Shown one piece after another: positions 13,411 through 40,147 of a DNA stretch of 64,000 nt (within the stretch, counting starts at the first letter, position 1; every line of letters starts with the position of its first letter). The DNA comes from Modestobacter lapidis (GTDB lineage Bacteria; Actinomycetota; Actinomycetes; Mycobacteriales; Geodermatophilaceae): contig JABAKE010000008.1 of NCBI GenBank assembly GCA_019779905.1, positions 62,001 through 126,000 on the forward strand. The letters are read 5' to 3'. The translations under genes and the position numbers were made by a program. The notes under the pieces are model-generated. The model did not search any database, was not told the origin of the DNA, and saw only the letters and a list, made by a program, of their open reading frames with translations.

Positions 13411-13470
13411 AAAAGGACCTCCCTCCTCCCCACCGCTCGCGAGCTCGCGGCGGGCCCCTGGAGGGAGGCC
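13411..13470 (+). repeat. Hairpin repeat copy R1
   Basis: Begins AAAAGGACC directly after the folP2 TGA. The outer stem CCTCCCTCC (13418-13426) pairs perfectly with GGAGGGAGG (13460-13468); the core is CTCGCGAGCTC. Member of an eight-copy family in this window. In this position it could act as a terminator. Confidence 0.85.
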
Positions 13471-30129: not shown

Positions 30130-31953
30130 GTGACCCCCGGGCCCGAGGCCGTCGACGAGCAGCAGCTCGAGGCGGCCCGCTGGCGCCTGCTCGCCGTCAG
30201 CGACGCAGGGGACGCCGGGGCCTTCGGCACCGAGTTCGCCGCGGTCGAGGGTGCGTTCCGCACCGCCGGCTCGCCGTGCTGGGACGCCTGGGCCGGTGCC
30301 TTCGCCGCCCGCACGCAGCTGGACGGCGGCGACCTGGACGCTGCTGCCGCCGACGTCGCCGCCGCCCGCGCCGACCTGGAACGCTGCCCGCCGACGGCCG
30401 AGCGCGCGCTCACCCTGGCCTACCTGGCGCACGTCGAGGTGGCCGCCGACCGCCTCGACGCGGCCCTGCACCTGGCCGTCGACGCCAGCCTGCTCGCCGA
30501 CCAGGCCGGCACCGGCGAGCCCAGCCGCGCGCTGCACCAGGCCCACTACTGGCTCTCCCGGGCGCTCACCCTGCTCGACCTCGAGGAGCTCGCCGCCGCC
30601 CAGGCGTTGCGCGGCTCCCGGGTCGCCGACGCGCTGCCCGACGTCGCCGACCGCTGGCGCCTGCTGCGGCTGAGCGCCCAGCAGCACGCGGAGCTGGCCC
30701 AGACCGTGCACCGGCGTGGCGACCTCCCCCGCTCCCGCGAGCTGGCCGCGGTGGCGCTGGGCTGCGCCACCTCCGCCCGGGAACTCCCCTGGAGCGCACC
30801 GGAGCCCGAGGAGGACCTGCTCGCGGTGGTGACCGCCTGGGCGATGACGCTCGCCGGGCAGCTGGACGAGGCGCTGACCCCGCTGCGCCGGGTGCGCGGA
30901 CGGATCGAGGGCGACGGCGGCGGCCTGCACCTGCTCGGCCACGCCGACCTGGTGCTCGCCCGGTTGCTGTTCTCCCTCGGCGAGCGCGACGCGGCCGCGG
31001 CGGTCACCGGCACGTCCGCCGCCCAGCCGGTTCCCGCGCCGGCACCGACCGGGCCCGGCGAGGAGGCCATCGACCTGCTGGTGGACGCGGCCGGCGCGTT
31101 CGCCGCCGCCGGCGACCGGCGGCGGTACCGCCAGTGCCTGCTGGAGCTCGGCCAGGCATCGGCCACGCTGGGCCACAGCGCCGAGGCCCTGCACTGGCTG
31201 GAGGCCTACCGCGCCGAGACCACCCGCGCCCACCTCCGCGGGCGCGAGCTCTGGGCCGAGATGTTCGTGCGCCGCAGCCGGCTGCGAGAGGCGCAGCGAC
31301 AGACCGCCGTCCTCCGCCGGCACGCGATGGAGGACGCCCTGACCGGGCTGGGCAACCGGCGCAACGCCGAGCGGCGGATGGCCGAGCTCGACTTCGAGGC
31401 CGGCCCGGTCTCGCTGGCCGTGGTCGACGTCGACGGGTTCAAGGCCGTCAACGACGCCAGCTCCCACGTGCACGGGGACGCGGTGCTGCGCCGGATCGCC
31501 GAGCTGTTGCGGGTGCACAGCCGCACCGGTGACGAGGTGTACCGCTGGGCCGGTGACGAGTTCGTCGTGCTGCTGCCCGCGACCGCCGAGCCACAGGCCG
31601 TGGTCGCCATGGAGCGGCTGCGCACCGCCGTCGCCGACGCCGACTGGGCCGCGCTGCCGGTGCACCGGCCGATCACGGTCAGCATCGGGGTCGCGACCGC
31701 CGCCCCCGACCGGGTCGGCGGCCCGCACTCGTGGCGGGCCCTGTTCGACTCCGCCGACCTGCACCTGTTCGGCGCCAAGCGCAGCGGGCGCAACCGGGTG
31801 CGCGCGACGACCGCCGGCCAGGCCGGCACCCAGCCCGCCGGCCGCCCGCTGCCGATGACCGCCTCCGTGGACGACCTGGTCGCCGAGGTCCTCGGCAGCC
31901 AGGCCGCCCGGCCGCCGGGCTGGGCGTTCGACGACGGCGAGGTGGCCTCGTGA
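30130..31953 (+). CDS. Diguanylate cyclase with N-terminal TPR-like domain
   Basis: 607 aa cytoplasmic protein. Residues 1-385 are Ala/Leu/Glu-rich helical repeats of TPR or SARP-bacterial-transcriptional-activator-like type, probably for protein contacts. Residues about 400-560 are a GGDEF domain (ALTGLGNRRNAERR, VDVDGFKAVND). The active-site motif is AGDEF (474-478), a functional variant, and the product-inhibition I-site RxxD is present (Arg465-Asp468). It should make cyclic di-GMP from two GTP. A 40-residue tail follows. GTG 30130 has GGAGGA upstream. It is paralogous to the next gene in both halves; both are on the plus strand and may be co-transcribed. Confidence 0.9.
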   Translation: MTPGPEAVDEQQLEAARWRLLAVSDAGDAGAFGTEFAAVEGAFRTAGSPCWDAWAGAFAARTQLDGGDLDAAAADVAAARADLERCPPTAERALTLAYLAHVEVAADRLDAALHLAVDASLLADQAGTGEPSRALHQAHYWLSRALTLLDLEELAAAQALRGSRVADALPDVADRWRLLRLSAQQHAELAQTVHRRGDLPRSRELAAVALGCATSARELPWSAPEPEEDLLAVVTAWAMTLAGQLDEALTPLRRVRGRIEGDGGGLHLLGHADLVLARLLFSLGERDAAAAVTGTSAAQPVPAPAPTGPGEEAIDLLVDAAGAFAAAGDRRRYRQCLLELGQASATLGHSAEALHWLEAYRAETTRAHLRGRELWAEMFVRRSRLREAQRQTAVLRRHAMEDALTGLGNRRNAERRMAELDFEAGPVSLAVVDVDGFKAVNDASSHVHGDAVLRRIAELLRVHSRTGDEVYRWAGDEFVVLLPATAEPQAVVAMERLRTAVADADWAALPVHRPITVSIGVATAAPDRVGGPHSWRALFDSADLHLFGAKRSGRNRVRATTAGQAGTQPAGRPLPMTASVDDLVAEVLGSQAARPPGWAFDDGEVAS

Positions 31954-32026
31954 GCGAGCTCGCGAGCTCACGCAGGAGCACAGCAACCGGGCGAAGCTGC
32001 CCGACGAGCGCCAGCGAGGAGGGGCA
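31951..32026 (+). other. Structured intergenic element between two cyclase genes
   Basis: Begins at the TGA of the first cyclase gene with the perfect 14-bp palindrome GAGCTCGCGAGCTC (31956-31969) and ends with GAGGAGGGGCA, the ribosome site of the next gene. The palindrome contains CTCGCGAGCTC, identical to the core of repeats R1 and R7, but the flanking AAAGGACC and outer stem are absent. It may be a second, related dispersed element. Confidence 0.4.
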
Positions 32027-34960
32027 ATGAACCTGCGCGCCTCGCGGGGCCCCCGCGGCCCGGCCGGCAGCCCGGGCCGCGCGCGACGTGCCAGCAGGGC
32101 GCAGGTGCGTGACTCCCGGGCCGGCACCAGGCACAGTGCGCTCGTGCCACCCGGAGTCCTGCACCAGCAGGTGACCTCGGCGCTGGCCAACGGGCAGCTG
32201 GACACCGCCGAGGCGCTGCTCGCCGAGATCGACGGCGCGCTCGCGGTGCCGGCCACCGAGCCCGGCACCCCGCCGCTGCCGCCACTGGCCCGGGCCTGGG
32301 CCGACACGCTGCACGCCGAGCTGCTGGTCCGCCGGCTGCGGCGGGCCGGCTGGTCGCTGGTCGGCGACCCGCTCGTCGAGGGCGGCCCCGAGCAGGATGC
32401 CGCCCTGGATCTGCACACCGGCGTCGCCGGGCTGCACGACCCAGCGACGGCCACACCCACCCCGGCGCCGGCCACCGACGGCCGCGCCGAGTCCGCGACG
32501 CACGCCGCGCTGGCGATCGCCCTGGTGCGGTCGGCGCGGGCGGCCTTCGACGCCCAGGACGACGATCTCCAGCGTGCCGCCGGCCTGGCCCGGCACGCCC
32601 GCATCGAGCTGCTCTCCCGCCGGGTCGACGCCGCGATGGACGAAGCGGTCGAGGCGGCCAGCCTGCTCGACCCGGGCCTCCCCCCGACCCCGCTGCTGGT
32701 GCACACGCTGTGCTCACTGGCCGGCGTGCTGGCCGACCTCGAGCTCATGCCGCTCGCCCTGGACTACCAGCGTCGCGCGGCCGACACCGCCGAGCTGGCC
32801 GCCCAGCAAACTCCCGGCGAGCCGCGTCCGGACGGGCGGACGGCATCCGCGGTCGCCGCCGAGGCCGCCACCCGGCTCGCCGCGCTGTGCGCCGAGGTCG
32901 GTGAGGGCCTGCTCGACGAGGACGCCCCGGAGGCGGCGGCGCCCCGGTTCGCCGAGGCCCGCGAGCTCACCGTCCGGGCGCTGGGCCGGCTGCCCACCGA
33001 CGACCCGGGGGTGCTGGAGGCGCAGGTCGTGCACGGCTGGGCGCTGGCCGGCCTGGGCGAGCACGAGGCCGCCGTCACGCTGCTGCGGTCGGCCGTACCC
33101 GCCACGGAGGCCGCCGACGAGGCCGAGCTGACCGCCTCGGCCCAGCTCGGGCTGGGCCGTGCGCTGCGCCGGTCCGACGACCGTCGCGCGGCCGACGACC
33201 ACCTCGCGGCGGCGCTGGCGCTGGCCACCGAGCAGGGCCTGCCCCGGCTGCGGCGGGCCGCGCTGCGGGAGCTGTGCACGCTGCACGCCGAGCTGGACGA
33301 CGCCGCCCGGGCGCTGCCGTACCTGCAGGCCTACCTCGCCGACGAGCTCGACCGGGTCGATGAGCGACGCACCCGCTGGGTGGAGCTCTTCGGCCGCCGC
33401 AAGAGCCTGCTGGAGACCGAGCGGGCCGCCGGGCAGCTGCGCCGGCAGGCCTACGAGGACCCGCTCACGCACCTCCCCAACCGGCGGTACGCCGAGGCCC
33501 GGCTGGACGGGCTGCTCACCGCGGGCAGCGTGCCGGCGCTGGCCGTCGTCGACATCGACCGGTTCAAGTCGATCAACGACGCCGCCGGCCACCCGGGCGG
33601 TGACGCGGTGCTGCGGGCCGTCGGCCAGCTGCTGGTCGACGGGTGCCGCGACACCGACGAGGTGTGCCGCTGGGCCGGCGACGAGTTCGTCATCCTGCTC
33701 CCCGACACCACCGCCGAGCAGGGCGAGCGGGCGATGGAGCGCATCCGCCGCTCGATCGCGGTGCACGACTGGTCCTCCCTCGGCGTCGACGTGCCGGTCA
33801 CGATCAGCGTGGGCGTCGCCTCCGCGGCCCGCGGCGACGACCGCCGCACCCTGTTCGCCGCCGCTGACGGCGTGCTCTACGAGGCCAAGCGCGGCGGCCG
33901 CGACCGCGTGGTCCGGCTGTCCGGGGTGACCCAGACGCTCGCCGACGACGGCGCCCTCGGCACCGGGGACACGCCCGACGACACGCCCGGTGACACGCCC
34001 GCCGCGAGCGGGCCGGCGCCTGCCGACACGGCCTCCGCCGACGTCCCCGGCACGGCCGGGCCGGCGGTTAGGGTCGGCGACGTGAGCGCCCGACCGCTGG
34101 AGGACGACCCCGGATACCGGGCCGACGACGACGCCGACGACCTCGCCGACGCCGCGGGCGGGTTCGCCCCGCTGCTCGTCGAGCCCCCGGCCGACGAGGC
34201 GCCGGCCCGCCCGCGCAGCCCGCTGGACGAGCTGTTCGGCGGCGGCCCGCGCGCCACCGGAACCCGCACCATCTCCCCGGCCGCGCCGCCGGCGCCGGTC
34301 GCCGGCACCGCGGCCGCGCCGTCCCGCGAGCCGGCCGTGCCGGTCGGCCCGGACATCATCTGGGGCACCGGCCGCAGCACCGAGCAGGTGCTGGCCCTGG
34401 TGCGTGCGGCCCGCCGCGAGTTCCCCGACCGCGCCGCCCTGGTGGTCCGGGCCGACGCCGACACCTTGGTCGCCCTGGCCAGCGAGCACGACGCGTACAC
34501 GACGATGGACCACGCCGCGATGTCCTGCGCCGTCGGCCCGCTGCCCGAGCCGGTGGGCCGGGTCGGCGTGCTGTGCGCCAGCAGCGGCGACACCCCGATC
34601 GCGGCCGAGGCCGCCTTCGTCGCCCGGGTCACCGGTACCGCGGTCGTCCGGGTCGACGACGTCGGGGGCAGCCGCCTGCGCCCGCTGCTCACCGACTCGT
34701 CGCTGCTCACCGAGGTCGACTGCCTGGTCGTCGTCGCCGGGCTGGATGCCGCGCTCGCCGGCGTGGTCAGCGGCCTCACCGAGGTCCCGATCGTCGCCGT
34801 TCCCACCTCGGCCGGGCAGCCGAACTCCTTCGGCGGCTTCGGCGCGCTGCTGACCATGCTGAACTCCGCCGCCCCCGGCGTCGTGGTCAGCAACATCGAC
34901 AACGGCTGGTCGGCCGGGGTCTTCGCGGCAAGGATCGCGCGGCGGAGTAGCCGGGGTTGA
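32027..34960 (+). CDS. larB: Diguanylate cyclase fused in frame to LarB (nickel-pincer cofactor carboxylase)
   Basis: One open frame of 977 codons. Residues about 40-440 are TPR-like helices paralogous to the preceding protein. Residues about 465-620 are a GGDEF domain (AGDEF 550-554, I-site Arg541-Asp544, VDIDRFKSINDA), probably active. After a disordered Pro/Ala/Asp-rich linker, residues about 775-972 are LarB, a PurE-like enzyme that in lactobacilli carboxylates and hydrolyses NaAD for the Ni-pincer nucleotide: IIWGTGRSTEQVLAL, CASSGDTPIAAEAAF, VPTSAGQPNSFGGFGALLTML, NIDNGWSAGV. The family cysteine in MLNSC is Ala948 here. No stop separates the two parts; an internal GTG at 34082 (codon 686), 7 nt after TAGGGT, could also make free LarB. 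larC follows. The first 40 residues are poorly conserved, so the true start may be the GTG near codon 40. Confidence 0.85.
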   Translation: MNLRASRGPRGPAGSPGRARRASRAQVRDSRAGTRHSALVPPGVLHQQVTSALANGQLDTAEALLAEIDGALAVPATEPGTPPLPPLARAWADTLHAELLVRRLRRAGWSLVGDPLVEGGPEQDAALDLHTGVAGLHDPATATPTPAPATDGRAESATHAALAIALVRSARAAFDAQDDDLQRAAGLARHARIELLSRRVDAAMDEAVEAASLLDPGLPPTPLLVHTLCSLAGVLADLELMPLALDYQRRAADTAELAAQQTPGEPRPDGRTASAVAAEAATRLAALCAEVGEGLLDEDAPEAAAPRFAEARELTVRALGRLPTDDPGVLEAQVVHGWALAGLGEHEAAVTLLRSAVPATEAADEAELTASAQLGLGRALRRSDDRRAADDHLAAALALATEQGLPRLRRAALRELCTLHAELDDAARALPYLQAYLADELDRVDERRTRWVELFGRRKSLLETERAAGQLRRQAYEDPLTHLPNRRYAEARLDGLLTAGSVPALAVVDIDRFKSINDAAGHPGGDAVLRAVGQLLVDGCRDTDEVCRWAGDEFVILLPDTTAEQGERAMERIRRSIAVHDWSSLGVDVPVTISVGVASAARGDDRRTLFAAADGVLYEAKRGGRDRVVRLSGVTQTLADDGALGTGDTPDDTPGDTPAASGPAPADTASADVPGTAGPAVRVGDVSARPLEDDPGYRADDDADDLADAAGGFAPLLVEPPADEAPARPRSPLDELFGGGPRATGTRTISPAAPPAPVAGTAAAPSREPAVPVGPDIIWGTGRSTEQVLALVRAARREFPDRAALVVRADADTLVALASEHDAYTTMDHAAMSCAVGPLPEPVGRVGVLCASSGDTPIAAEAAFVARVTGTAVVRVDDVGGSRLRPLLTDSSLLTEVDCLVVVAGLDAALAGVVSGLTEVPIVAVPTSAGQPNSFGGFGALLTMLNSAAPGVVVSNIDNGWSAGVFAARIARRSSRG
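34069..34084 (+). promoter_or_regulatory. Putative internal leaderless promoter and start for LarB
   Basis: Hexamer TAGGGT (34069-34074), seven bases, then GTG (34082-34084) in frame with LarB. The layout matches the other leaderless starts of this window. It would give a 292-aa LarB without the cyclase. Coding constraint alone could also produce the hexamer. Confidence 0.5.
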
Positions 34961-35165
34961 TGATGCGGACCGCGCAGCGGGCCGGGTGCTCGGTCGTCGC
35001 GACGGACCCGACTTCCGGACCGAGCCACACGGGGATGCGGTGACGGTCCAGCCGGACCGGGGGACGGCTCCTGGCCGGAGTGGCCTCGTCGCGGGGGCCG
35101 GAGGCTCCCCGACGGGGACACGGTCAACGGCTCCACGCCAGCCGGGAACGGCACGTGGCCGCGGT

Positions 35166-35196
35166 GTCGTCCGGAGGACGACAGTGTCATCGATGA
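35166..35196. promoter_or_regulatory. Palindromes upstream of larC
   Basis: GTCGTCC, GGA, GGACGAC (35166-35182) and the perfect 10-bp palindrome TCATCGATGA (35187-35196), which contains the GATGAT hexamer ending 6 nt before the larC ATG. The rest of the 243-bp gap from 34961 shows no gene or riboswitch that I recognise. Confidence 0.4.
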
Positions 35197-35203
35197 TCAC
35201 GGC

Positions 35204-36400
35204 ATGACCATCGGGTGGTTGGACTGCTCCGCCGGCGCGAGCGGCGACATGCTGCTCGGGGCGCTCGTGGACGCCGGGGTACCGCTCAGGGTGCTGTCCG
35301 CGGCCGTCGCCGCGCTGCCGGTGGAGCCGGTGACGCTCACCGCGGAGCCGGTCACCCGGCACGGGCTGGGTGCCACCCGGGTGCACGTGCACGCACCGGC
35401 CAGCGACGTGCACCGCACCTGGGCCGACGTCCGCGGCCTGCTCGCCACCGCCGCGCTGCCCCCGGCCGTCCGGGACGGCGCGCTGGCCGTCTTCGGGCGG
35501 CTGGCCGCGGCCGAGGGGCGGGTGCACCGGGTTCCACCCGCCGAGGTGCACTTCCACGAGGTCGGCGCCCTCGACGCGCTGGCCGACGTCGTCGGCGTGG
35601 TCGCCGGGTTCGAGCACCTCGCGCTCGCCCGGCTGTCGGCCTCACCGGTGGCGCTGGGCAGCGGCTCGGCCCGCGGCGCGCACGGCGTCGTCCCGGTCCC
35701 CGGGCCCGCCGTCCTCGAGCTCCTCGCCGGCGTGCCCGTCGTCGCCGGGCCGGTGCCGGCGGAGACCTGCACGCCCACGGGCGCGGCGCTGCTGGCCGCC
35801 CGGGTCCAGCAGTGGACGACGCTGCCGCCGATGCGGGTGCAGCGGGTCGGCAGCGGCGCCGGCGGCCGCGACCCCGTCGAGCACCCCAACCTGGTCCGGC
35901 TCGTCCTCGGTGAGCCCGCCGACGCCGCCGCCGGCGAACCCGGCGGCGGCGACCTGGTGCTGGAGGCGAACGTCGACGACCTGGACCCGCGGCTGTGGCC
36001 CGGGGTGCTCACCGACCTGCTCGCCGCCGGTGCCGCCGACGCCTGGCTGACCCCGATCCTGATGAAGAAGGGCCGGCCTGCGCACACCCTGTCGGTGCTC
36101 TGCGCCCCGGCGCGGCTGGCCGCCGTGCAGCAGGTGGTGCTGTCGGCGAGCTCCACCATCGGGCTCCGCCGTTCCGCGGTGTCCAAGCTGGCCCTGGACC
36201 GCACCCAGGGCCACGTTCCGGTGCTGGGCGGGGAGGTCGGGGTGAAGGTGGCCCGGTCGGCCGGCCGGGTGGTGAACGTGAGCGTCGAGTTCGACGACGT
36301 CGCCGCGCTCGCCGGGGCACTGGCCCTGCCGGTCAAGGAGGTGCTGCGCGCCGCGACCGCCGCCGCCGAGCGCGCGCACCCCGTCGAGCCCGGGGCCTGA
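35204..36400 (+). CDS. larC: Nickel insertion protein LarC
   Basis: 398 aa LarC-family protein, the CTP-dependent cyclometallase that inserts Ni into the pincer nucleotide cofactor used by lactate racemase and related enzymes. The N-terminal domain begins WLDCSAGASGDMLLGALVDAG and has the metal-rich segment EVHFHEVGALDALADVVG; CTPTGAALLA is also conserved. The C-terminal domain has EANVDDLDPRLWPGVL, LTPILMKKGRPAHTLSVLC and the STIGLR block. Unlike lactobacilli, where larC is split by a programmed frameshift (larC1/C2), this is one uninterrupted gene. It follows the cyclase-LarB fusion by 243 bp. LarE and a racemase LarA are not in the window. Confidence 0.94.
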   Translation: MTIGWLDCSAGASGDMLLGALVDAGVPLRVLSAAVAALPVEPVTLTAEPVTRHGLGATRVHVHAPASDVHRTWADVRGLLATAALPPAVRDGALAVFGRLAAAEGRVHRVPPAEVHFHEVGALDALADVVGVVAGFEHLALARLSASPVALGSGSARGAHGVVPVPGPAVLELLAGVPVVAGPVPAETCTPTGAALLAARVQQWTTLPPMRVQRVGSGAGGRDPVEHPNLVRLVLGEPADAAAGEPGGGDLVLEANVDDLDPRLWPGVLTDLLAAGAADAWLTPILMKKGRPAHTLSVLCAPARLAAVQQVVLSASSTIGLRRSAVSKLALDRTQGHVPVLGGEVGVKVARSAGRVVNVSVEFDDVAALAGALALPVKEVLRAATAAAERAHPVEPGA

Positions 36401-36482
36401 TCCCGCCGGCGCCGTCGCCTACCCTCGTCCGGCGAGAGGGGCAGCAGCCCTGGCCCGGTCGTGTGAGCAGAGAAGAGCAGGC

Positions 36483-37079
36483 GTGGTCCCCTCGGTCATC
36501 CTGGCCGCGTTCGTGCTGGTCCTGCCGGTCGAACTCCCCGACAAGACGCTGTTCGCGACGCTGGTGCTGGCCACCCGCTTCCCGGCCCTGCCGGTGTTCG
36601 TCGGCGTCGGCACCGCATTCGGCCTGCAGGTCGCCATCGCCGTCACGGCCGGCAGCCTGCTCTCGCTGCTGCCCGAGGCCCTCGTCACCGGAGTGGTCGC
36701 GGTGCTGTTCCTGGTCGGCGCCGTCCTGCTGTGGCGCAGCGCGACCAGCGCCCCCGACGAGGATGCCACCGCGCAGACCCGGGAGAACACCTCGTTCCTC
36801 CGCGCCGCCGCCATCTCCTTCGGGGTGCTCTTTGCGGCCGAGTGGGGCGATCTGTCCCAGCTGGCCACCGCCGGCCTGGCCGCCCGCTACGACGAGCCGG
36901 TGTCGGTCTTCCTCGGCGCCTGGGCCGCGCTGCTGGTCGTCTCCGGCCTGGCCGCCTTCCTGGGCAGGAGGCTGGCCGACCGGCTGCCGGTGGCGATGAT
37001 CCGCCGGGTGGCAGCCGTGCTGTTCCTGGTCTTCGCCGTCATCGCGATCGTCGAGACCGTCCGCACGCTCACGGCCTGA
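36483..37079 (+). CDS. TMEM165/GDT1-family cation transporter
   Basis: 198 aa membrane protein with six helices in two repeats. Each repeat carries the family motif: ELPDKTLFATLVLATR in helix 1 (residues 17-32, E-x-x-D-K-T) and EWGDLSQLATAG in helix 4 (about 119-130, E-x-G-D-x-S/T). Bacterial members (for example MneA and related proteins) export Mn2+; plant and yeast members move Mn2+ or Ca2+. The acidic loop between halves (APDEDATAQTREN) is typical. GTG 36483 has only a weak ribosome site; TACCCT at 36420-36425 may be the -10. Manganese riboswitches often precede such genes, but I see none. It lies 82 bp after larC. Confidence 0.9.
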   Translation: MVPSVILAAFVLVLPVELPDKTLFATLVLATRFPALPVFVGVGTAFGLQVAIAVTAGSLLSLLPEALVTGVVAVLFLVGAVLLWRSATSAPDEDATAQTRENTSFLRAAAISFGVLFAAEWGDLSQLATAGLAARYDEPVSVFLGAWAALLVVSGLAAFLGRRLADRLPVAMIRRVAAVLFLVFAVIAIVETVRTLTA

Positions 37080-37146
37080 CCCGGAGGGGGCAGATCCCGC
37101 CCCGCCGTCCTCAAGACGGCCCGGCGGACGGTCGACGTCCTGAGCG

Positions 37147-37165
37147 GGGGCCGACAGCCGGCCCC
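37147..37165 (+). terminator. GC-rich hairpin upstream of GGDEF gene
   Basis: GGGGCCG, ACAGC, CGGCCCC: 7-bp perfect stem 17-35 bp before the next start codon. It could terminate the larC-GDT1 transcript or shape the leader of the next gene. Confidence 0.35.
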
Positions 37166-37181
37166 GGGACGGGAGTGGGTC

Positions 37182-37769
37182 ATGGACGCGGTCCGGCTGG
37201 AGCAGTCGCAGGACCTCCTGGTGCAGACGGCGGCGGTCGTCGCCGCGCAGCGGGAGTTCGCCTCCCGGCTGCGCAGCCGCACGATCCGCGACCCGCTCAC
37301 CGGCCTGCCCGTGCGCAGCCTGCTGGTCGACCGGCTCGAGCTGTCGCTGGCCGCGGCCGGCCCCGGCTCCGGGCGCCTGGCCGTGCTCTCCTGCGACCTG
37401 GACGGCCTGGCCAGCCTCGAGCACCGGCACGGCCCGACGGTGGCCGACACCGCCCGCGGTGAGGTCGCCGGCCGGCTGGTGGCCGCCGTCCGCCAGGGCG
37501 ACCTGGTCGCCCGGGTCGGCACCCAGACCTTCGTCCTGCTGTGCCCGGGGATCGTCGTCCCCGAGGACGCCGAGGGCATCGCGGAGCGGGTGGCCGCCTC
37601 GTTCGACGAGCCGCTGCGCCCCGATCCCGACGTCGCCGCACCCGTGCGGATCAGCGTGGGGGCGGCCCTGTCCGGCCGGGATTCCACGCCGGCGTCCCTG
37701 CTCGCTGCCGCCGATCAGGCGATGGCCCGGGTCCGTGCCGACCGGCTGGCCGCCGGCCGCACCGACTGA
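37182..37769 (+). CDS. Degenerate GGDEF-domain protein
   Basis: 195 aa consisting of a short helical lead and one GGDEF domain (RDPLTGLPVRSLLVDRLEL, CDLDGLASLEHRHG). The active-site motif reads GTQTF at residues 113-117 in place of GGDEF, and the substrate-contact D/N pair (KxxND) is lost, so it cannot make cyclic di-GMP. The I-site-like RQGD (RxxD) precedes it, so product binding may be retained. Its sequence is close to the GGDEF domain of the next gene (DPLTGLP, RSLLVDRL, FVLLCPGI), which points to tandem duplication followed by decay. It ends 17 bp before that gene and may regulate it. Confidence 0.87.
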   Translation: MDAVRLEQSQDLLVQTAAVVAAQREFASRLRSRTIRDPLTGLPVRSLLVDRLELSLAAAGPGSGRLAVLSCDLDGLASLEHRHGPTVADTARGEVAGRLVAAVRQGDLVARVGTQTFVLLCPGIVVPEDAEGIAERVAASFDEPLRPDPDVAAPVRISVGAALSGRDSTPASLLAAADQAMARVRADRLAAGRTD

Positions 37770-37786
37770 CGCCCGCCCGTCCCGCC

Positions 37787-39232
37787 GTGCCCGTGTCCAC
37801 GCCCGAGGTGTCCGCCGTCGACCTGCTCGACGTGCCCGAGGACGCCGAGCTCGACGCCATCGTCCGGATCGCCGCGGCCGTCACGGGCATGGCGATGGCC
37901 ACCGTGAACGTGCTGGACACCCACCGTCAGGCGCAGCTGGCCAGCGTCGGCTTCCCGCGCCGGGTCACCCCGCGGAACGAGTCGCTGTGCACCCGCGCCC
38001 TGGAGGCCGGCAGCGTGTTCGCCTCCGCCGACCTGAGCACCGACGACCGGTTCAGCGACAGCCCGTGGGTGGATGGCCGCCGCGACGAGGTGCGCGGGTA
38101 CGCGATGGTGCCGCTGCAGCTCGACGGCGGCGTCGTCGGCACGCTGTGCGTGCAGGACCGCGAGGTCCGGGCGCTGTCGGCCGACCAGCTGGACCGGCTG
38201 CGCGACCTCGGCACGGTGGTCGTCGCGCTGCTCGAGCGCCGCCGGCAGAGCCGGCGCACCACCGAGCTGGCCCGGGCCAGCTCGGCCGCGCACGCCGAGG
38301 CGACCGCCGCGCACGACGAGCTCGCCGCCGCCCATGCCGCGCTGACCAGTGCCCGCGCCTTCGACGAGGCGCTCCTCGACGCCCTGCCGGTGGCCGTCGT
38401 GGCGGCCGACCCCTCCGGTCGGGTGACCGTCTTCAACCGGGTCAGCCGGCTGTGGCACGGCACCGACAGCGACCCGACCCTGCTTCCGGAGGAGTTCGCC
38501 CAGCACTTCACCCTGCGGACGGCGGACGCCACCCGGCTGCTGGCCCCCGGGGAGGTGCCGCTCACCCGGCTGTTCCGCGAGGGGCGGCTGGAGGACGTAG
38601 AGATCAGCATCGTCCCGGACGGCTCGGCTGCCCGGGTGGTCTCCTGCAACGGTGCGGCGGTCCGCGGCCCGGACGGCAGCCGGCTGGGGGCCGTGATCGT
38701 GATGTCCGACGTCACCGCCCAGCGCGAGCTGGAGGACCGGCTGCGCACCGCGGCCCTGCACGACCCGCTCACCGGACTGCCCAACCGCAGCCTGCTGGTC
38801 GACCGGCTGGACCTGGCGCTGTCCGCGGCCGGCCGGGACGGCGCCCCGCTCGCCGTCCTGTACTGCGACCTCGACGGCTTCAAGGCCGTCAACGACGGGT
38901 GGGGGCACGCCGCCGGGGACGCCGTCCTGACCGGGGCCGCCGGCCGGCTGTCCGCCGCGGTCCGTCCGGGGGACACGGTCGCCCGGATCGGCGGCGACGA
39001 GTTCGTGCTGCTGTGCCCCGGCATCGAGGACCGCGCGGCCGCCCAGGCCGTCGCCGACCGGGTGGTCGCGGCGATGGAGACCCCACTGCCCTCCGGCGCC
39101 GGCCGGGTGCACCGGGTGGGGATCAGCGTCGGGGTCGCCCTCTCGACGCCCGACTCGGCCCCCGAGGCGCTGCTCACCGCCGCCGACCAGGCGATGTACC
39201 GGGTGAAGTGGGCCCGCCGCCGGCTGGTCTGA
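37787..39232 (+). CDS. GAF-PAS-GGDEF diguanylate cyclase
   Basis: 481 aa cytoplasmic sensor cyclase. GAF domain at residues about 18-150 (VTGMAMATVNVLD, NESLCTRALEAGSVFASADL), a short coiled linker rich in Ala/Arg, PAS at about 190-315 (ALPVAVVAADPSGRVTVFN, VIVMSDVTAQRELEDRLR), GGDEF at about 320-480. The catalytic motif is canonical GGDEF (402-406), with I-site Arg393-Asp396 and CDLDGFKAVND, so it should synthesise cyclic di-GMP under feedback control. GTG 37787 is used; GTG 37793 is equally possible. The missing ribosome site and short gap suggest co-transcription with the degenerate GGDEF gene upstream. Confidence 0.9.
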   Translation: MPVSTPEVSAVDLLDVPEDAELDAIVRIAAAVTGMAMATVNVLDTHRQAQLASVGFPRRVTPRNESLCTRALEAGSVFASADLSTDDRFSDSPWVDGRRDEVRGYAMVPLQLDGGVVGTLCVQDREVRALSADQLDRLRDLGTVVVALLERRRQSRRTTELARASSAAHAEATAAHDELAAAHAALTSARAFDEALLDALPVAVVAADPSGRVTVFNRVSRLWHGTDSDPTLLPEEFAQHFTLRTADATRLLAPGEVPLTRLFREGRLEDVEISIVPDGSAARVVSCNGAAVRGPDGSRLGAVIVMSDVTAQRELEDRLRTAALHDPLTGLPNRSLLVDRLDLALSAAGRDGAPLAVLYCDLDGFKAVNDGWGHAAGDAVLTGAAGRLSAAVRPGDTVARIGGDEFVLLCPGIEDRAAAQAVADRVVAAMETPLPSGAGRVHRVGISVGVALSTPDSAPEALLTAADQAMYRVKWARRRLV

Positions 39233-39282: not shown

Positions 39283-39384
39283 CTGCCCTGTCCGGAACAC
39301 ACGGAGAGGAGGGGTCATGAGCTGGACGGTGGGCGAGCTGGCCCGGCTGGCCGGCGTCACGGTGCGCACGCTGCACCACTACTC

Positions 39385-39443
39385 GAAGGACCCCGCTGCC
39401 CCCCACCGCTCGCACGCTCGCGGCGGGCCCCTGCAGCGGGGCC
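39385..39443 (+). repeat. Hairpin repeat copy R5 (inside MerR gene)
   Basis: GAAGGACC start, perfect 9-bp outer stem CCCCGCTGC (39391-39399) with GCAGCGGGG (39433-39441), core CTCGCACGCTC. Plus orientation; interrupts the MerR coding sequence after codon 22. Confidence 0.85.
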
Positions 39444-39483
39444 AAAAGAACGTGCTGCTGCTCACGGATGCTGTTGTACTTGC

Positions 39484-39543
39484 GGCCCGCCTGCAGGGGC
39501 CCGCGCCGAGCTTGCGAGGTGCGGGGGGCAGGCCGGTCCTTTC
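39484..39543 (-). repeat. Hairpin repeat copy R6 (inside MerR gene)
   Basis: Read on the minus strand it starts GAAAGGACC; core CTCGCAAGCTC; outer stem near CCGGCCTGC/GCAGGCGGG. Opposite orientation to R5, whose 3' end it faces, with a 40-bp lower-GC spacer between. Confidence 0.85.
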
Positions 39544-39571
39544 GTTGCACCGGCGGACAGCATGTCTGTGT

Positions 39572-39631
39572 GGCCTGCCTGCAGGGGCCCGCGCCGAGCT
39601 CGCGAGGCGTGGGGGGGCAGGCGGGTCCTCC
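39572..39631 (-). repeat. Hairpin repeat copy R7 (inside MerR gene)
   Basis: Minus orientation, starts GGAGGACC; core CTCGCGAGCTC; outer stem near CCCGCCTGC/GCAGGCAGG. It abuts the point where MerR/TipAS coding sequence resumes. Confidence 0.85.
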
Positions 39632-40147
39632 CGCGGCTGCTGCGGGACCGGCTCGAGCGCACCCAGGCGATGGTCGCGGCCGTCGAGAAGGAGATGGAGG
39701 CACGGCAGATGGGGATCTCCCTGACCCCGGAGGAACGGTTCGAGGTGTTCGGCGACTGGCTGCCCGAGGAGTACGCGGCCGAGGCCGAGGAGAAGTGGGG
39801 CGACACCGAGGCCTGGAGCCAGTCCCAGCGGCGGACGGCAGCGATGTCCAAGGAGGACTGGCTGCGGGTCAAGGCCGAGGGGGACGACGTCGAGCGCCGG
39901 TTCGCCGCCGCCCTGGCCGGTGGGGTGCCGGCCGACTCGGCGACCGCGATGGGCCTGGCCGAGGAGCACCGGCAGCAGATCAGCCGGAACTTCTACGACT
40001 GCTCCCCGGAGATGCACGCGGGGCTGGGCCGGATGTACGTGGCGGACGAGCGGTTCACCGCGTACTACGAGCAGATCGCGCCCGGCCTGGCGCAGTACGT
40101 GAGCACCGCCGTGAAGGCCAACGCCGCCCGCCAGGGCTGAGCCGCCC

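Follow-up and report, generated by a model that had tools for sequence, protein, structure and literature searches.

LarB acts in the synthesis of the nickel-pincer nucleotide cofactor. We take Cys221 of L. plantarum LarB to be catalytic, and Glu180 presumably has a role as well. PMC11796402 describes the addition of CO2 to C5 of nicotinic acid adenine dinucleotide (NaAD) by LarB, followed by hydrolysis, and a 2021 PNAS paper is cited in PMC9283937 under a title that refers to a covalent cysteine intermediate of LarB. Here, we report a gene in which a LarB-like domain lacking both Cys221 and Ser127 is joined in frame behind a GGDEF domain, in a 64,000-nucleotide stretch of Modestobacter lapidis contig JABAKE010000008.1 (hereafter the window). 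The same combination is found throughout most of the Geodermatophilaceae, with or without the cofactor pathway. The fused domain is probably a LarB pseudoenzyme taken up into a diguanylate cyclase, where it would act in regulation or assembly; the cofactor pathway would rely on a separate LarB.

Loss of LarB active-site residues in the fused domain

The fused gene and its parts are arranged as follows, and GAGGAGGGGCA upstream of the ATG resembles a ribosome-binding site.

32027-34960, + strand: fused gene with TPR-like N-terminus, GGDEF domain, linker and LarB-like domain (977 aa plus stop)
33044-33229, + strand: weak TPR-like stretch, residues 340-401 (PF13424, E 1.6e-4, 22.2 bits, below the Pfam cut-off of 30.1)
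33449-33907, + strand: GGDEF (diguanylate cyclase) domain, residues 475-627 (PF00990 128.7 bits, TIGR00254 122.9 bits, both above cut-off)
33647-33688, + strand: RDTD (I-site RxxD) and AGDEF active-site motif, residues 541-554
34349-34942, + strand: LarB-like domain lacking catalytic Cys and Ser, residues 775-972 (NF033503 158.8 bits for the whole protein, below the cut-off of 175)
34586-34588, + strand: Gly854 at the position of LarB Ser127 (alignment to LarB)
34868-34870, + strand: Ala948 at the position of LarB Cys221 (alignment to PDB 7mj0)

An initial annotation of the window had read the codons at 34862-34870 as AAC TCC GCC (Asn946, Ser947, Ala948) and concluded that the catalytic cysteine, which it numbered 221, was missing from a LarB. 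The codons are as it gave them in the 977-aa open reading frame (ORF), and the residue number is right: when the protein is aligned by phmmer with L. plantarum LarB (PDB 7mj0), its MLNSAA lies ungapped over MLNSCA, with Ala948 above residue 221 of the chain. No other Cys is found nearby in the motif, and the NIDNG (residues 956-960) and FGGFGALLTM motifs are both present, again as annotated. An error of sequencing or assembly at the Cys codon, or a misalignment, has practically no chance of being the explanation and can be regarded as refuted. The alignment is ungapped, all same-genus fused-type rows covering position 221, from many assemblies, have Ala (22 rows and the fragment L073), and the Cys is likewise absent from the relatives in other assemblies that are counted below.

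Relatives were gathered from 59 genomes (that of the window included), from stretches of them and from named genome contigs, the named loci being the best 80 among the 155 places that were confirmed. The titles of these 80 give Geodermatophilaceae or the genera Modestobacter, Blastococcus, Geodermatophilus, Klenkia, Goekera and Trujillonella, with the exception of 'Bacillus sp. AZ43' (marked unverified) and one plain 'Frankiales bacterium'. Among the 109 fused-type rows some genomes are repeated from two collections, and 87 sequences are distinct. The counts exclude L003, L004 and L006, which duplicate the window locus. Five other rows had been dropped beforehand: two partial fused-type rows with Ala at 221 (L073, L168), a partial fused-type row that does not cover this position (L135), a stand-alone row of genome G017 whose frame is lost before 221 (L075) and the PurE-like L074.

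Cys221 was found in none of the 109 fused-type rows versus all 38 stand-alone LarB rows, and Ser127 in none of the 109 versus 37 of the 38 (L. plantarum LarB, LpLarB, included in both comparisons). Position 221 is instead occupied by Ala (86 rows), Ser (10), Gly (5), Thr (5) or Pro (3), and position 127 by Gly (65), Ala (38), Val (3) or Pro (3). A further 23 loci from the census genomes, partly the same genomes as in the 109 rows, also lacked both residues (0/23 each). PDB includes S127A variants of LarB.

The initial annotation in fact understated the loss. Ser127, K57, H158-R159 and Y204 are invariant or nearly so in stand-alone LarB and have no match in the window domain; K57, T79, R159, G181, Y204 and G235 are kept in 0/87 distinct fused-type sequences and H158 in 10/87. 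Stand-alone LarB has 54 invariant positions, of which the fused type retains 28 in at least 85% of the 87 sequences and has 9 swapped for one other residue in at least 70%. Most sequences retain D128, E134, D151, an acid at 180, P199-T200-S201 and D231-N232-G233; at position 180, which is Asp907 in the window, fused-type sequences have D in 81 and E in 6, and stand-alone LarB D in 34 and E in 4. The fused type also has near-fixed residues of its own (R57 86, L63 87, L65 87, T97 87, A181 87, R156 80 and W53 77, each out of 87), and very divergent rows exist, such as L166 and L183.

Profile scores follow the same division. The window LarB-like domain alone reaches 163.8 bits with NF033503, and all six fused-type domains tried score 118-171, below the cut-off of 175 which four of four stand-alone LarB pass. 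PurE identity is ruled out for the fused protein, which as a whole scores 25.9 bits with TIGR01162 (cut-off 149.6). A first AlphaFold2 model of the domain, from 30 near rows, was poor (predicted local distance difference test, pLDDT, 67.4) and was discarded. The model from an alignment of 70 rows that included stand-alone LarB (mb73697726e3d) has pLDDT 89.9 and a predicted template modelling score of 0.88. Its best structural matches are LarB chains, with template modelling scores of about 0.85 and Z up to 27.6 (7mj0_B: 200 residues, root-mean-square deviation 2.1); PurE ranks after LarB with Z of about 17 over some 130 residues, and one PDB title among the matches names an octameric PurE. The predicted fold is that of LarB.

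A canonical LarB, for which the initial annotation had advised a search, is present in the same genome. PF00731 (cut-off 30) matches at three places in this genome: a strong PurE-like one of 210.5 bits, which was taken as PurE, the fused domain at 39.8 bits, and a stand-alone LarB with MLTACAPG (L002). The latter passes NF033503 with 235 bits and adjoins a LarE gene (TIGR00268 257.4 bits). There is one LarA match and one LarC match in the genome, the LarC being the copy in the window. In genome G017, an extra stand-alone larB adjoining larE (L075) has lost its frame before the Cys region, and two other stand-alone larB with the Cys are present.

Distribution, conservation and probable origin of the fusion

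Five traits were tallied by hand in 53 Geodermatophilaceae genomes of at least 90% completeness, with a threshold for stand-alone LarB of 1e-3 in the first 35 genomes gathered and 1e-20 in the other 24. The fused-type domain was present in 50, stand-alone LarB in 33, LarE in 32, LarC in 38 and LarA in 19. Stand-alone LarB and LarE are either both present (32 genomes) or both absent (20) in all but one of the 53; the exception, G001, has LarB and no more than a partial LarE match of 70.9 bits. The fused type is independent of them, occurring in 30 of 32 genomes with LarE and 20 of 21 without. It is kept in 14 of the 15 genomes that lack LarA, LarC, LarE and stand-alone LarB. These fifteen span five genera, and since every one of these genera also includes LarC- and LarE-bearing genomes, the pathway has likely been lost several times. 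LarC without stand-alone LarB or LarE was seen in G132, G201, G218, G229 and G244; its scores are lowered in four of these (312-345 bits, versus 423 in G201), which may mean that this LarC is decaying or has been put to a different use.

The GGDEF and LarB parts share one open frame in 74 of the 80 named loci, and the frames of the other six run off the contig end. Among 23 of the 24 later genomes that were read, 20 had the GGDEF part in the same frame, G244 and G265 ran off the contig end, and the frames differed in G195. Ratios of nonsynonymous to synonymous substitution rates (dN/dS) were calculated by the Nei-Gojobori method for same-genus rows, using 21 of 22 (L027 was left out). The median for the fused LarB domain was 0.21 (210 pairs, 21 rows). 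Comparing pathway-less with other genomes gave 0.22 (54 pairs), and the three pathway-less members of the genus gave about 0.10-0.18 among themselves. Purifying selection thus acts on the fused domain whether or not the pathway is present, but more weakly than on stand-alone LarB.

The 44-row tree places its 17 fused-type domains in one clade (100/100) on a stem of 0.76 changes per column. This clade groups with eight order- or family-level stand-alone LarB, each with larC in its fetched flank (one match is cut by a contig end). Support for the placement is only moderate, 82/85 with L036 and 92/86 for the wider set, so that the source of the fused larB is placed approximately. The larE-side LarB of the family (L002 and relatives), which carry MLTAC in place of MLNSC, form a separate clade (100/99). 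In G029 and G031 a stand-alone, Cys-bearing larB adjoins larC. Together with the grouping in the tree this suggests that a larC-side larB was captured by a GGDEF gene and that its work passed to the larE-side larB. At 1e-40, G029, G031 and G027 gave no close relative of the fused N-terminus. Fusion by read-through from a neighbouring GGDEF gene was considered and found no support: the flanks fetched around the stand-alone larB-larC pairs of G029 and G031 showed no relative of the fused GGDEF part.

Outside the family, a scan of 249 genomes of the order found LarB matches at 1e-20 in 47 genomes from other families, with a top score of 246.8 bits; position 221 was read in 10 of these and was Cys in all. 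Score alone is insufficient to tell the types apart: the matches of G183 (244.6 bits) and G265 (230.6 bits) are Cys-less and were recognised only by reading the sequence. Fused-type LarB may also occur elsewhere in the order or outside it.

Two neighbours of the fused gene belong to this part of the comparison.

30130-31953, + strand: upstream GGDEF protein, kin to the fused N-terminal part, in which no LarB domain was found (PF00990 95.7 bits, no other Pfam family)
35204-36400, + strand: larC (nickel insertion protein), the sole LarC match in the window genome (TIGR00299 189.2 bits, PF01969 421.9 bits)

The upstream protein is 38% identical to the fused N-terminus (query 129-595). Further genes lie in the same part of the window. 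Four GGDEF ORFs are clustered at 30130-39232, namely 30130-31953, 32027-34960, 37182-37769 and 37541-39232, the last with GAF and PAS domains; ORF 37182-37769 has GTQTF in place of the GGDEF active-site motif. A gene for a GDT1-type divalent cation/proton antiporter is found 3' of larC at 36483-37079. At 39380-39640 there are two 48-nt direct copies and 66-nt inverted arms (79% complementary) that have GGGCCCGCGCCGAGCT[CT]GCGAGG in common, and one further match to this motif, with 3 mismatches, is located at 13435 on the other strand.

Possible roles of the fused domain

The cyclase part appears intact. The window protein has AGDEF at 550-554, VDIDRFK at 508-514 and RDTD at 541-544; in the 74 named ORFs holding the GGDEF part the motif is AGDEF in 69 and AGDEY in 5, VDxDxFK is found in 73, and RxxD precedes the motif in all 69 that were tested for it. 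We take the RxxD I-site and AGDEF to have the meaning they generally have in GGDEF enzymes, and these active-cyclase motifs point to synthesis of cyclic di-GMP (c-di-GMP). Signalling by c-di-GMP is expected in the family, since PMC8325347 reports a twin-motif form of the c-di-GMP-binding anti-sigma factor RsiG for 16 of 16 Geodermatophilaceae species.

That the domain is inactive as a LarB is well supported by the loss of active-site residues, the canonical LarB elsewhere in the genome and the retention of the domain where the pathway is missing. Recruitment by the cyclase would be its best-supported function. The ancestor of most Geodermatophilaceae would have joined a larB, probably a larC-side one, in frame behind a TPR-like/GGDEF gene, once, after which Cys221, Ser127 and roughly half of the LarB-invariant residues would have disappeared from the joined copy. 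In genomes that still make the nickel-pincer nucleotide cofactor, carboxylation would be left to the separate Cys-bearing LarB, which is usually larE-adjacent. Most likely the LarB/PurE fold has been retained for the sake of the cyclase, whether as an oligomeric platform joining GGDEF domains or as a small-ligand sensor with an altered pocket. GGDEF domains act as pairs, and LarB and PurE are oligomers; the LarB-like domain may therefore organise or gate the pairing of the cyclase, with or without a ligand in the changed pocket. The initial annotation had also offered a ligand-binding module as one option. A specific form of it, in which the pocket binds NaAD or another metabolite of the NAD pathway without turnover and so couples the NAD economy to the cyclase across the Geodermatophilaceae, is tentative and rather unlikely. 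If true, a cofactor-biosynthesis fold would have been turned into a c-di-GMP sensor domain.

Several observations weigh against a LarB pseudoenzyme serving the cyclase. The kept fold and the largely retained D128, E134, acid 180, P199-T200-S201 and D231-N232-G233 may leave room for other chemistry, that is, for LarB- or PurE-like carboxylation or hydrolysis via other residues and possibly on a new substrate. We consider this very improbable. Position 221 varies among A, S, G, T and P, S127, K57, Y204, R159 and G235 are absent from all 87 sequences with H158 kept in only 10, and the use of another residue for the LarB reaction, which the initial annotation had entertained, is unlikely with a variable position 221 and so much of the LarB-invariant surrounding changed. 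For a PurE-like reaction, TIGR01162 gives 23-36 bits against a cut-off of 149.6 in six of six fused-type rows tried (stand-alone LarB scores equally low), and the genome has its far better PF00731 match elsewhere. The fused gene adjoins larC in the window, and larC is in the fetched flank of 42 of the 80 named loci, so some link to the pathway may exist where the two adjoin. A non-catalytic partner of the nickel-cofactor pathway, such as a LarC scaffold or a hetero-oligomer with active LarB, would fit this adjacency and the oligomeric nature of PurE and LarB. It would fit poorly with the domain being kept in 14 of 15 near-complete pathway-less genomes of five genera and with the low dN/dS among the three that share a genus, and we hold it to be just as improbable as residual catalysis.

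A decaying remnant without function is only slightly more credible, and still improbable. Constraint on the fused domain is weaker than on stand-alone LarB (dN/dS 0.21 versus 0.13, 153 pairs) and than on the GGDEF part of the fused protein (0.12, 190 pairs), L166 and L183 are divergent, and in G017 (L027) and the pathway-less genome G195 (L200) the GGDEF part does not share a frame with the LarB part. Also weighing against the main reading, G029 and G031 are without the fused type, although a 58-residue match at a contig end in G031 (45%, E 6.5e-7) could be a piece of it. In the fifteenth pathway-less genome, G255, the contig ends about 445 bases past the GGDEF part with an in-frame stop near that end, and the domain may have been lost there. 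Decay is opposed by the median dN/dS, the single open frame in 74 of 74 named loci uncut by a contig end, the near fixation of fused-specific residues (R57, A181) and the confident fold model. A LarB pseudoenzyme recruited by a diguanylate cyclase thus remains the explanation that we favour.

Comparison with known systems

No description of a LarB-GGDEF fusion, or of a LarB-type domain in c-di-GMP proteins, was found in the literature collection searched. The fusion is an apparently clear natural case of an enzyme whose active site has been dismantled and whose fold is kept in a signalling enzyme; the active paralogue in the same genome serves as a control, and the several pathway losses as natural tests. 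LarB would join the folds that are used in c-di-GMP proteins. For annotation, larB calls made by fold or PF00731 would misassign nickel-pincer cofactor synthesis to genomes that have the fused type only.

Compared with LarB itself (NF033503; PDB 7mj0, 7mj1, 7mj2, 8soq, 8stc, 8std), the fused domain is alike in fold and has both the N-terminal and the PurE-like part, with about 36% identity to LpLarB over some 200 aligned residues and the 28 of 54 LarB-invariant positions kept. It differs in lacking Cys221 and Ser127, in scoring below the curated cut-off, in being fused to GGDEF and in occurring independently of LarE. With PurE/AIR (aminoimidazole ribonucleotide) carboxylase (PF00731, TIGR01162) only the C-terminal part of the domain has its fold in common, over the stretch of about 130 residues matched in the structure search; unlike PurE, the fused protein is far below the PurE cut-off and has a LarB-type N-terminal part. 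Diguanylate cyclases that carry a sensory or assembly domain share with the fused protein a GGDEF domain above cut-off with AGDEF and RxxD, but here the accessory domain is C-terminal and would be a LarB-derived pseudoenzyme.

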